A stretch of DNA of 64,000 bases, from the NCBI RefSeq assembly GCF_900112975.1, contig NZ_FONQ01000001.1, positions 1 to 64,000 on the forward strand, in the 5' to 3' direction. A model generated the notes under the pieces. It was not told the DNA's origin and made no database searches. It saw only the letters and a program-made list of their open reading frames with translations. Of the stretch, positions 30,075 to 32,063 are shown piece by piece. This DNA comes from Flavobacterium xueshanense (GTDB lineage Bacteria; Bacteroidota; Bacteroidia; Flavobacteriales; Flavobacteriaceae). Made by a program: the position numbers and the translations under genes. How positions within the stretch are numbered: the stretch's first letter is position 1; each line of letters begins with the position of its first letter.

Positions 30075-31262
30075 TTATCCTACAATCTCAGTTACTTGTC
30101 CAGCACCTACAGTTCTACCACCTTCACGGATAGCGAAACGTAAACCAACGCTCATTGCGATTGGGCTTAACAAAGCAACATTAATAGTTAAGTTATCTCC
30201 TGGCATTACCATCTCCACACCTTCTGGTAAAGTAATAACTCCTGTTACGTCAGTCGTACGTACGTAAAACTGTGGACGGTAGTTATTATGAAATGGCGTA
30301 TGACGACCACCTTCTTCTTTTTTCAAGATATATACCTCAGCTTTGAAAGTAGCGTGTGGCTTAACTGAACCTGGCTTAATGATAACCATTCCTCTTTTGA
30401 TAGATTCTTTATCAACACCACGTAACAATAAACCTACGTTATCTCCTGCTTCACCTCTATCAAGAATTTTACGGAACATCTCAACTCCAGTAATAGTAGA
30501 AGTCAATTTTTCAGCTCCCATACCAATGATTTCAACAGCATCTCCTGTATTAGCAATTCCAGTCTCGATACGACCTGTAGCAACAGTTCCACGACCAGTA
30601 ATTGTAAATACATCTTCAACCGGCATCAAAAATGGTTTTGCTGTATCACGAATTGGTTCTTCAATCCATGAATCACAAGCGGCCATTAATTCAATAATTT
30701 TTGGTACCCAAGTAGGATCACTATTCAATCCTCCAAGAGCAGACCCTTGAATAACTGGACAATTATCTCCATCATATTCATAGAAAGACAATAAGTCTCT
30801 GATTTCCATTTCAACAAGTTCCAATAATTCCTCGTCATCAACCATATCCACTTTATTCATGAATACTACCATTCTAGGAATACCTACTTGGCGACCTAAA
30901 AGGATGTGTTCACGTGTCTGTGGCATTGGCCCATCAGTAGCAGCTACAACAAGGATAGCACCGTCCATTTGAGCAGCACCAGTAACCATGTTCTTTACGT
31001 AATCCGCGTGACCAGGACAGTCAACGTGAGCGTAATGACGGTTTGCAGTTTCGTACTCAACGTGAGATGTATTAATTGTAATACCTCTTTCTTTTTCTTC
31101 AGGAGCATTATCAATTTGATCAAATGATTTTGCTTGACAGTAACCAGCATCAGATAATACTTTAGTGATTGCTGCTGTTAATGTAGTTTTTCCGTGATCC
31201 ACGTGCCCAATTGTACCAATGTTTAAGTGGGGCTTGTTACGGTTAAAGGTTTCCTTTGCCAT
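30075..31262 (-). CDS. tuf: Elongation factor Tu
   Basis: GTPase that brings aminoacyl-tRNA to the ribosome. 395 residues, with G1 [10 protein letters not shown]2 [13 protein letters not shown]3 DCPGHADY and G4 NKVDMVDD, plus both beta-barrel domains. It is the only tuf in the window. tRNA genes flank it on both sides, and it shares a transcript with the upstream Thr-Tyr-Thr tRNAs. Confidence 0.98.
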
Positions 31263-31316
31263 TTTACTTAATTTTTAATCTTAGTTATATATTAATTTCT
31301 ATTTCCTACTTACTTG

Positions 31317-31388
31317 AGCCAATGTCGGGAATTGAACCCGAGACCTCTTCCTTACCAAGGAAGCACTCTACCCCTGAGCTACACCGGC
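31317..31388 (-). tRNA. tRNA-Thr (GGT anticodon)
   Basis: 72-base cloverleaf. Acceptor GCCGGTG / CATTGGC (two G-U pairs), discriminator T; anticodon loop TTGGTAA gives GGT; T-arm TCGGG / CCCGA. It lies 54 bases upstream of tuf. Confidence 0.95.
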
Positions 31389-31440: not shown

Positions 31441-31452
31441 AAAGATTAATAG

Positions 31453-31533
31453 TGGGGAGAGCAGGATTCGAACCTGCGAAGTTCACACAGCAGATTTACA
31501 GTCTGCCCTCGTTGGCCGCTTGAGTATCTCCCC
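31453..31533 (-). tRNA. tRNA-Tyr (GTA anticodon)
   Basis: 81 bases with the long variable arm expected of a bacterial class II tRNA-Tyr. Acceptor GGGGAGA / TCTCCCC, discriminator A; anticodon loop CTGTAAA gives GTA; T-arm GCAGG / CCTGC. Confidence 0.96.
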
Positions 31534-31566
31534 TACTTTTACTATCATCAAACCTTTACAGTCTTG

Positions 31567-31640
31567 AGCCGGCGGAGGGACTCGAACCCACGACCTGCTG
31601 ATTACAAATCAGCTGCTCTAGCCAACTGAGCTACGCTGGC
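31567..31640 (-). tRNA. tRNA-Thr (TGT anticodon)
   Basis: 74 bases. Anticodon loop TTTGTAA gives TGT. Acceptor GCCAGCG opposite CGCCGGC leaves an A4-C69 mismatch, and the T-arm GTGGG / CCCTC has a U-U mismatch. All other stems are sound, so it is probably functional. It is the first gene after the operon promoter. Confidence 0.9.
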
Positions 31641-31650
31641 GAATCAATAA

Positions 31651-31677
31651 AAAAAGTCCGCTATTTCTAACGGACTG
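31651..31677 (-). terminator. hpf: hpf terminator with GAAA tetraloop
   Basis: On the minus strand AGTCCGTTA-GAAA-TAGCGGACT forms a 9-bp stem (one G-U) capped by a GNRA tetraloop and followed by seven T. Its 5' arm lies immediately after the -7 element of the tRNA/tuf promoter. Confidence 0.88.
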
Positions 31678-31706
31678 CAAATGTAGAGATTTTATCTCTC
31701 AATCAA
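31678..31706 (-). promoter_or_regulatory. Promoter of the Thr-Tyr-Thr-tuf operon
   Basis: Minus-strand TTG at 31704-31706, an 18-base spacer, and TACATTTG at 31678-31685: a full match to the Bacteroidota -33/-7 pattern. The expected start site, about 5-7 bases further on, falls inside the 5' arm of the adjacent terminator. Confidence 0.75.
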
Positions 31707-31730
31707 AACATTTTTTCGAAAAAATTTCTA

Positions 31731-32033
31731 TTAAATATGAGAACTTATCTTTTCTTTTCTTTTTAATAACATTCGTTCTAAAGATTCTGCCGAAAGTTCC
31801 ACAGCCTCTTCAAAAGTTTTACACTGCTTTTTTACTAAAAAATCATCTCCGGGAACATTAATTTTGACCTCCACAATTTTATTCTCTTTATCACTTGTCT
31901 TTTCAACTTTCAAAAAAACATCCGCTGACACAACTTTGTCATAGTACTTTTCCAACTTGTCCATTCTTTCTTGAACAAAATCTACTAACTTTTTGTCAAT
32001 AGTAAAGTTAACTGCATGAACACTTACCTTCAT
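31731..32033 (-). CDS. hpf: Ribosome hibernation promoting factor (short HPF/RaiA type)
   Basis: Small protein that binds the decoding region of idle ribosomes and promotes dormancy. About 100 residues with the S30AE/HPF fold (KVSVHAVNFTIDKKLVDFVQ at the N-terminus, VKINVPGDDFLVKKQCKTFE in the middle, basic ending RMLLKRKEKISSH). Lacking the C-terminal dimerisation domain of long HPF, it is the short form. ATG 32033 is preferred over 32039 by comparison with the family start MKVxVxxxNF. It lies 24-30 bases after the recombinase gene and is likely co-transcribed with it. Confidence 0.9.
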   Translation of the reverse strand: MKVSVHAVNFTIDKKLVDFVQERMDKLEKYYDKVVSADVFLKVEKTSDKENKIVEVKINVPGDDFLVKKQCKTFEEAVELSAESLERMLLKRKEKISSHI

Positions 32034-32063
32034 AATCATCTTTTTTAATTGTTACACATTATA

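Follow-up and report, generated by a model that had tools for sequence, protein, structure and literature searches.

The junction between hpf and the tRNA-tuf operon of Flavobacterium xueshanense carries a predicted intrinsic terminator whose 5' arm overlaps the start region of the tRNA-tuf promoter, and comparison with related genomes makes it probable that this terminator acts on read-through from hpf and is largely dismantled in RNA that begins at the overlapping promoter. Polymerase arriving from hpf would copy the bases just past the -7 box and make RNA with both arms, which could form the 9-bp hairpin; this RNA would be released at the U-run, hpf transcripts would stop there and the tRNA-tuf operon would not be driven by them. 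Polymerase starting at the overlapping promoter would begin about 5-6 bases past the TTTG of the -7 box, its RNA would lack the outer bases of the 5' arm and have a weak inner stem, and elongation would go on into the tRNAs and tuf.

Layout of the junction

The window is the whole stretch of DNA that was analysed (64 kb), and all positions are those of the window. The features of the junction, in the direction of transcription, are the following.

31731..32039, minus strand: open reading frame upstream of the hairpin, presumably hpf (ribosome hibernation promoting factor)
31704..31707, minus strand: -33 promoter element TTTG, with an 18-nt spacer to the -7 box
31678..31685, minus strand: -7 promoter element TACATTTG, of the Bacteroidetes TAnnTTTG type
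31672..31673, minus strand: predicted transcription start, base 5 or 6 past TTTG and inside the 5' arm, placed by published spacing
31668..31676, minus strand: 5' arm AGTCCGTTA of the predicted terminator hairpin, 2 bases past the -7 box (sequence, hairpin scan, covariation)
31664..31667, minus strand: GAAA loop (GNRA-type), common to all four forms found in the genus
31655..31663, minus strand: 3' arm TAGCGGACT of the hairpin (sequence, hairpin scan, covariation)
31649..31654, minus strand: terminator U-run of six T, predicted end of the hpf RNA (sequence, hairpin scan)
31566..31640, minus strand: tRNA-Thr(UGU), first gene of the downstream operon
31452..31533, minus strand: tRNA-Tyr(GUA)
31316..31388, minus strand: tRNA-Thr(GGU)
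30075..31262, minus strand: open reading frame, taken from its sequence to be tuf (elongation factor Tu)

Read 5' to 3', the minus strand is ...GTTTTGATTGAGAGATAAAATCTCTACATTTG CAGTCCGTTAGAAATAGCGGACT TTTTTT ATTG..., followed by tRNA-Thr(UGU). A single C separates TACATTTG from the hairpin at 31676-31655, which the terminator scan called with 9 pairs (4 of them GC), a loop of 4 and then six T; this is the G+C-containing stem, short loop and immediate U-run of an intrinsic terminator. The promoter has the TAnnTTTG -7 box, and a -33 TTTG at suitable spacing, that characterise primary sigma factor promoters of Bacteroidetes. The preliminary description had placed a -33/-7 promoter directly upstream of an hpf terminator with its first arm at 31668-31676 on the minus strand, and both the sequence and the hairpin scan confirm this arrangement, except that the TTTG edge is at 31707 and not at 31706. 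An AT-rich near-inverted repeat (AAATTTTTTCGAAAAAAT) also lies at 31708-31730 on the minus strand, past the hpf stop and ahead of the -33 element; similar A/T tracts occur in many members of the genus and are perhaps an UP-like element.

On the minus strand the genes run in the order xerC-like integrase, hpf, the element, tRNA-Thr, tRNA-Tyr, tRNA-Thr, tuf, tRNA-Trp, secE and nusG, and the same run continues past nusG with genes for ribosomal proteins and rpoB; the protein names are those that we take the sequences to indicate. Hpf serves slow or stationary cells and the tRNA-tuf operon serves growth, and therefore a separation of the two transcription units is sensible.

Uniqueness was assessed in the window together with a further 400 kb of the same genome (464 kb in total). 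This sample had 173 predicted terminators and 132 TTG-N16-20-TAnnTTTG sites, and only one junction, the one described here, combined both. A layout generic to the genome was thus ruled out, as just 1 of the 173 predicted terminators in the 464 kb has an arm at a promoter end. No second copy of the 29-mer with up to 3 mismatches was found in the genome, and TTTGCANNCCGTTAGAAA, searched with up to 1 mismatch, occurs nowhere else in it. Rfam 15 gave no match over the element at the gathering score; the sub-threshold matches were sroB and ncS025, the best being sroB, whose 36.5 bits fall short of the gathering score of 44. The search of the assembly for 16S rRNA gave no match despite its stated completeness of 100, and the rRNA operons are perhaps missing from the draft assembly.

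Predicted start and folding of the new RNA

A report on F. johnsoniae (PMC6847099) gives 434 candidate -7 elements upstream of predicted starts, of which 241 have 4 or 5 nt between the -7 element and the start and are counted as probable promoters, these 241 having themselves been chosen by that spacing. A report on F. psychrophilum puts the -7 box at -12 to -5 (PMC9723704). From the spacing in these two species we infer the exact start at C31673 or C31672, that is, at base 5 or 6 past TTTG and inside the 5' arm, which agrees with the usual start 5-7 bases past TTTG on which the preliminary description had relied. The new RNA would then lack 3 or 4 of the 9 bases that make up the 5' arm. The folding energy of the whole hairpin is -12.2 kcal/mol; it is -11.9 for RNA from base 2 and -11.5 from base 3, and then -6.8 from base 5, -3.7 from base 6 and -1.7 from base 7. 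A start at base 5 or 6 would therefore remove close to half or more of the stability and leave a small GAAA-capped stem. It had been claimed that new transcripts could not form the 9-bp stem; this holds for RNA from 31673 or 31672, but an inner stem of 6 or 5 bp, respectively, survives, so the stem in the new RNA of Flavobacterium xueshanense would be weakened and not abolished.

A different placing of the start would turn the hairpin into an attenuator of the tRNA-tuf operon. If transcription began at the purine A31676 or G31675, the new RNA would have almost the whole hairpin with the energies given above for bases 2 and 3, and a part of it would stop at the U-run some 20-28 bases in, tuning the output, perhaps through the choice of start. 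This alternative draws on a preference for purines: in B. thetaiotaomicron, 45% of starts are A and 41% are G (86% purines), whereas bases 5 and 6 past TTTG are both C here and the nearest purines are A31676, G31675 and G31671 (bases 2, 3 and 7). The base composition after the -7 box was also searched for a purine peak that would place the start, in a set of only 18 strong intergenic promoters from the 464 kb sampled; 11 of these 18 have A at base 2 past TTTG, and 17 have C or T at base 1. Set against this are the spacing in the two Flavobacterium species and the pairing outside the family described below, and we consider an attenuator unlikely.

Conservation in the genus

An hpf orthologue was found in 131 of 150 genomes of the same genus, and 130 loci were read after one weak match was excluded. 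The promoter box with the overlapping hairpin was present at all 130 junctions, and by the rule used a separate terminator after hpf was found at none of the 130. The -7 box is TACATTTG in 127 of them and TATATTTG in 3, the spacer from the -33 TTTG is 18 nt in 97 and 19 nt in 23, and TTTT replaces the -33 TTTG in 10. Behind the element lies tRNA-Thr(UGU) in 122 of the 130 loci. At the G132, G144 and L134 junctions it was not found past the element, yet tRNA-Tyr follows, and in G144 the U-run is broken as well.

What the preliminary description had not mentioned is that the element is nearly frozen across the genus. The 31-mer from TACATTTG to GGACT occurs in just 4 forms over the 130 genomes (117, 6, 4 and 3), compared with 77 distinct 31-mers upstream of the element and 112 at the end of hpf in the same genomes, and with 10 forms of the tRNA's first 31 nt at 122 junctions. 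This is more constraint than a terminator and a promoter should require, and dual use of the bases does not by itself fully explain it. It suggests a further constraint, for example on the first transcribed bases or on a 5' leader hairpin.

One reading of this near-freezing is that a protein recognises the conserved block in a sequence-specific manner, either in the DNA that directly follows the -7 box or in the new RNA, there as a 5' leader hairpin (CCGUUA-GAAA-UAGCGG), with termination of hpf being secondary. The family members that keep CCGTT with the U-run gone and the outer stem gone or shortened (G206, G407, G182 and G329) also speak for it, and the loop of G407 is GCGA in place of GAAA, which is also GNRA. 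The changes of sequence elsewhere speak against it: within the stem U-G and U-A alternate, which fits RNA pairing and not a DNA palindrome, so that a palindromic operator is disfavoured; in the family member G262 the stem is wholly different (GCCCGT/ACGGGC) at the same position; and outside the family the sequence shifts while the pairing stays. Taken together, a site read by its sequence seems to us quite unlikely.

Conservation in the family

The core 26-mer, with up to 3 mismatches, was found in 226 of 299 genomes and 180 of 236 genera of the family, and a reversed control pattern gave no match in the family genomes. Class-wide it was found in 8 of 295 genomes, all 8 from Flavobacteriaceae. 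Among the matches listed the holders include Flavobacterium, Maribacter, Tenacibaculum, Winogradskyella, Polaribacter, Aquimarina and Gillisia. Four of the matches listed (L351, L376, L397 and L421) have the exact family element under Pelagibacter, Lentimicrobium, Rhizobium and Limnohabitans MAG titles and are perhaps mis-binned Flavobacteriaceae contigs, and the family genome G355 has the core pattern twice, on separate contigs, perhaps from duplication or assembly redundancy.

Thirty-one family loci from other genera, picked because they match the core pattern and have a recognisable tRNA-Thr, were read, and the hairpin with a U-rich tail was present in 30 of them. In the exception, L155 (G341), the upstream frame is xerC-like and not hpf, and the outer 3' arm and the U-run are lost while the promoter and the 5' half are kept; this locus looks like a natural decay of the element. 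Of the 73 family genomes negative for the pattern 41 were searched and 35 of these have hpf; 30 of the loci were retrieved and scoring covered 22 junctions, among which 10 have sequence-changed overlapping hairpins, 2 have separate terminators and 10 have neither.

The family alignment consisted of 26 distinct gap-free 26-mers, picked by hand. Of its cells 88% pair, compared with at most 46% in slid structures, and both sides are changed in 12 cells against a shuffle mean of 4.2, with none of 500 shuffles as high. Double changes fall in 4 different pairs, a number that is not unusual taken alone, as 95 of the 500 shuffles reach it. It was also observed that where the terminator is absent but CCGTTAG is kept (L170, L177 and L182, in G206, G407 and G182, respectively), a small inner hairpin is possible, which hints at a role of the inner stem in the new RNA.

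Pairing and layout exchange outside the family

The class sample comprised 127 genomes of 126 genera, 122 of them with hpf, from which 120 loci were read; 72 junctions were linked to tRNA-Thr(UGU) and 70 of the 72 had TAnnTTTG. The order sample, in which some genomes share a genus, added 40 further loci with 28 linked junctions, 26 of these with TAnnTTTG. Overlap was scored for a hairpin with a U-rich tail whose 5' arm starts no later than base 2 past TTTG, the hairpin thresholds having been fixed after the sequences had been viewed. By this rule 20 of the 70 class junctions have an overlapping hairpin compared with 1.26 expected from a shuffle of everything beyond base 6 past TTTG, 23 have a separate terminator upstream of the promoter compared with 1.28 expected, and 2 have both. 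The 26 order junctions divide into 12 overlapping, 1 separate and 13 with neither. In total, an overlapping hairpin is present in 32 of the 96 order and class junctions, with 30 having overlap only, 22 a separate terminator only, 2 both and 42 neither. These 42, and the 10 of 22 pattern-less family junctions in which the rules used also found neither terminator, count against our preferred reading.

Bases complementary to the start region follow that region as it changes. The complement of a junction's own bases 1-6 with a U-rich tail was found in 21 of 70 class leaders, whereas 2.34 were expected with the bases of other genera, and the best of 2000 permutations reached 13 and none reached 21, kinship being ignored in these figures. 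Across the class base 3 pairs as GC, CG, AT, TA or GT and base 4 as TA, AT, CG or TG. Outside the family, then, the sequences compared change while the pairing persists, with double compensatory changes at bases 3 and 4 past TTTG, and the swap of start bases together with the double changes, kinship ignored, indicates that the stem is kept as RNA pairing. Conservation in relatives, which had been proposed as a check on the layout, is thus complete at the 130 genus junctions and extends to a part of the order and class, there with compensatory changes. Since bases 1-4 precede the published start, their pairing would act only in the upstream RNA if the start rule holds.

The stems reach even further back. 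The G of the -7 box is part of the stem in 14 of the 20 class cases, with C as its partner in 8 and T in 6, and in 5 of the 20 the last T of the box belongs to the stem too. RNA from the promoter cannot contain bases of the -7 box and so these pairs can form only in RNA from upstream, which argues against an attenuator, with the reservation that in the six G-T pairs the partner may be the first U of the tail. At a wobble limit of 3, the 24 class cases have a median energy of -15.5 kcal/mol for the whole hairpin; the median is -10.3 for RNA from base 2, -4.9 for RNA from base 5 and -2.8 for RNA from base 6. Some of the hairpins with the boxA-like tails described below stay strong after truncation (-19.7 in G506 and -14.5 in G523), which counts against our preferred reading.

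The overlapping hairpin also tends to be absent where a separate terminator already stands upstream of the promoter, as is expected if the hairpin serves the upstream gene, and this too speaks against an attenuator: 22 of the 24 non-family junctions with a separate terminator have no overlapping hairpin. With kinship ignored, this exclusion has a Fisher p of 0.0024 over the 96 junctions, and the class junctions by themselves give 0.007 with a wobble limit of 1, 0.011 with 2 and 0.015 with 3. The tail is a boxA-like TTCTTT and not a plain U-run in 8 of the 32 non-family overlap cases, and when hairpins with such tails are left uncounted the exclusion weakens, with p at 0.032 for class and order and 0.069 for the class alone.

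A related observation is that a motif GTTC(A/T)TT, which we take to be boxA-like, is present in the tRNA-tuf leader at 36 of 70 class junctions, compared with 2.15 expected from shuffles. It lies between the promoter and tRNA-Thr, for example in L200, L214 and L225, it was found at 0 of the 130 same-genus junctions, and elsewhere it sometimes doubles as the hairpin tail. It may mark antitermination of the tRNA-tuf operon.

That an ordinary terminator and an ordinary promoter were simply squeezed together, the overlap bringing no selected benefit, is highly improbable: hpf and the tRNA lie close together (mostly 90-92 nt apart in the genus), and the bases past the -7 box are CAnnCC in 53 of 70 class junctions (CAGTCC in 24), with or without a hairpin, so that a complement evolving onto fixed start bases could explain the position of the hairpin, but the spacers on the two sides of the element in the genus have sd of only 1.6 nt (hpf stop to TTTG) and 1.5 nt (TTTG to tRNA) against 27 and 70 nt for the next two tRNA spacers, and the frequent class-wide placing of an arm at the promoter end is matched by no other terminator in the 464 kb.

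What is best supported by the comparisons, through conservation, compensatory changes and layout exchange, is therefore the idea already put forward in the preliminary description, that the same bases would block read-through from hpf and spare new initiation. Whether the overlap also works as an active switch beyond insulating is a more tentative matter, and we think it unlikely. By choice of start, RNA from A31676 or G31675 would terminate almost at once and RNA from C31673 or C31672 would escape, and nucleotide levels could then set tRNA-tuf output. By recycling, the polymerase that has ended the hpf RNA would be released about 24-36 bp past the -7 box and might slide back and restart, which would link the hibernation gene to the growth operon; sliding back and restarting after termination was shown for another system in a single-molecule study (PMC6978380).

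Meaning and comparison with known systems

If the terminator acts as proposed, many members of the class shield a central growth operon by a terminator that only a passing polymerase can build, and the promoter's own start bases are reused as half of that terminator. This would give a simple rule for finding operon borders, namely hairpins that begin at the -7 box, and a caution for annotation, as a hairpin placed in this way does not have to attenuate the operon that follows it. Genetic tools for these bacteria would also gain a compact part that is insulator and promoter in one. The near-frozen sequence in the genus, with fewer forms than the adjoining tRNA start, is a puzzle that can be tested. 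In the open-licence literature searched, no account was found of a promoter start region at tuf that doubles as the 5' arm of the preceding terminator, in line with the earlier statement that the layout was not known to have been described for tuf.

Interlocked promoters and terminators are known, and in E. coli the ampC attenuator doubles as the terminator of the frd operon. The junction described here resembles ampC/frd in that adjacent operons have interlocking promoter and terminator regions and one hairpin ends the upstream operon and sits at the start of the downstream transcription unit. The difference is that the ampC hairpin lies wholly inside the ampC RNA and attenuates it, whereas here the predicted start is inside the 5' arm and the new RNA should mostly escape. 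E. coli pyrC is similar in that a shift of the start by a few bases decides whether a 5' hairpin forms; the pyrC hairpin, however, prevents translation, and a single promoter has both starts, whereas here the hairpin is a predicted terminator and each of the two RNAs belongs to an operon of its own. The gene order of three tRNAs and then tuf recalls the tRNA-tufB operon of the E. coli type, with Thr-Tyr-(Gly)-Thr tRNAs followed by tuf, but here the operon lies behind hpf and has a TAnnTTTG promoter of the Bacteroidetes type. Finally, the element shares a stem, a short loop and a U-run after hpf with an ordinary terminator between operons, and the plain layout alone, with a separate terminator and then a promoter, is what 22 of the 96 non-family junctions have; what sets the element apart from an ordinary terminator is that its 5' arm is the start region of the promoter.
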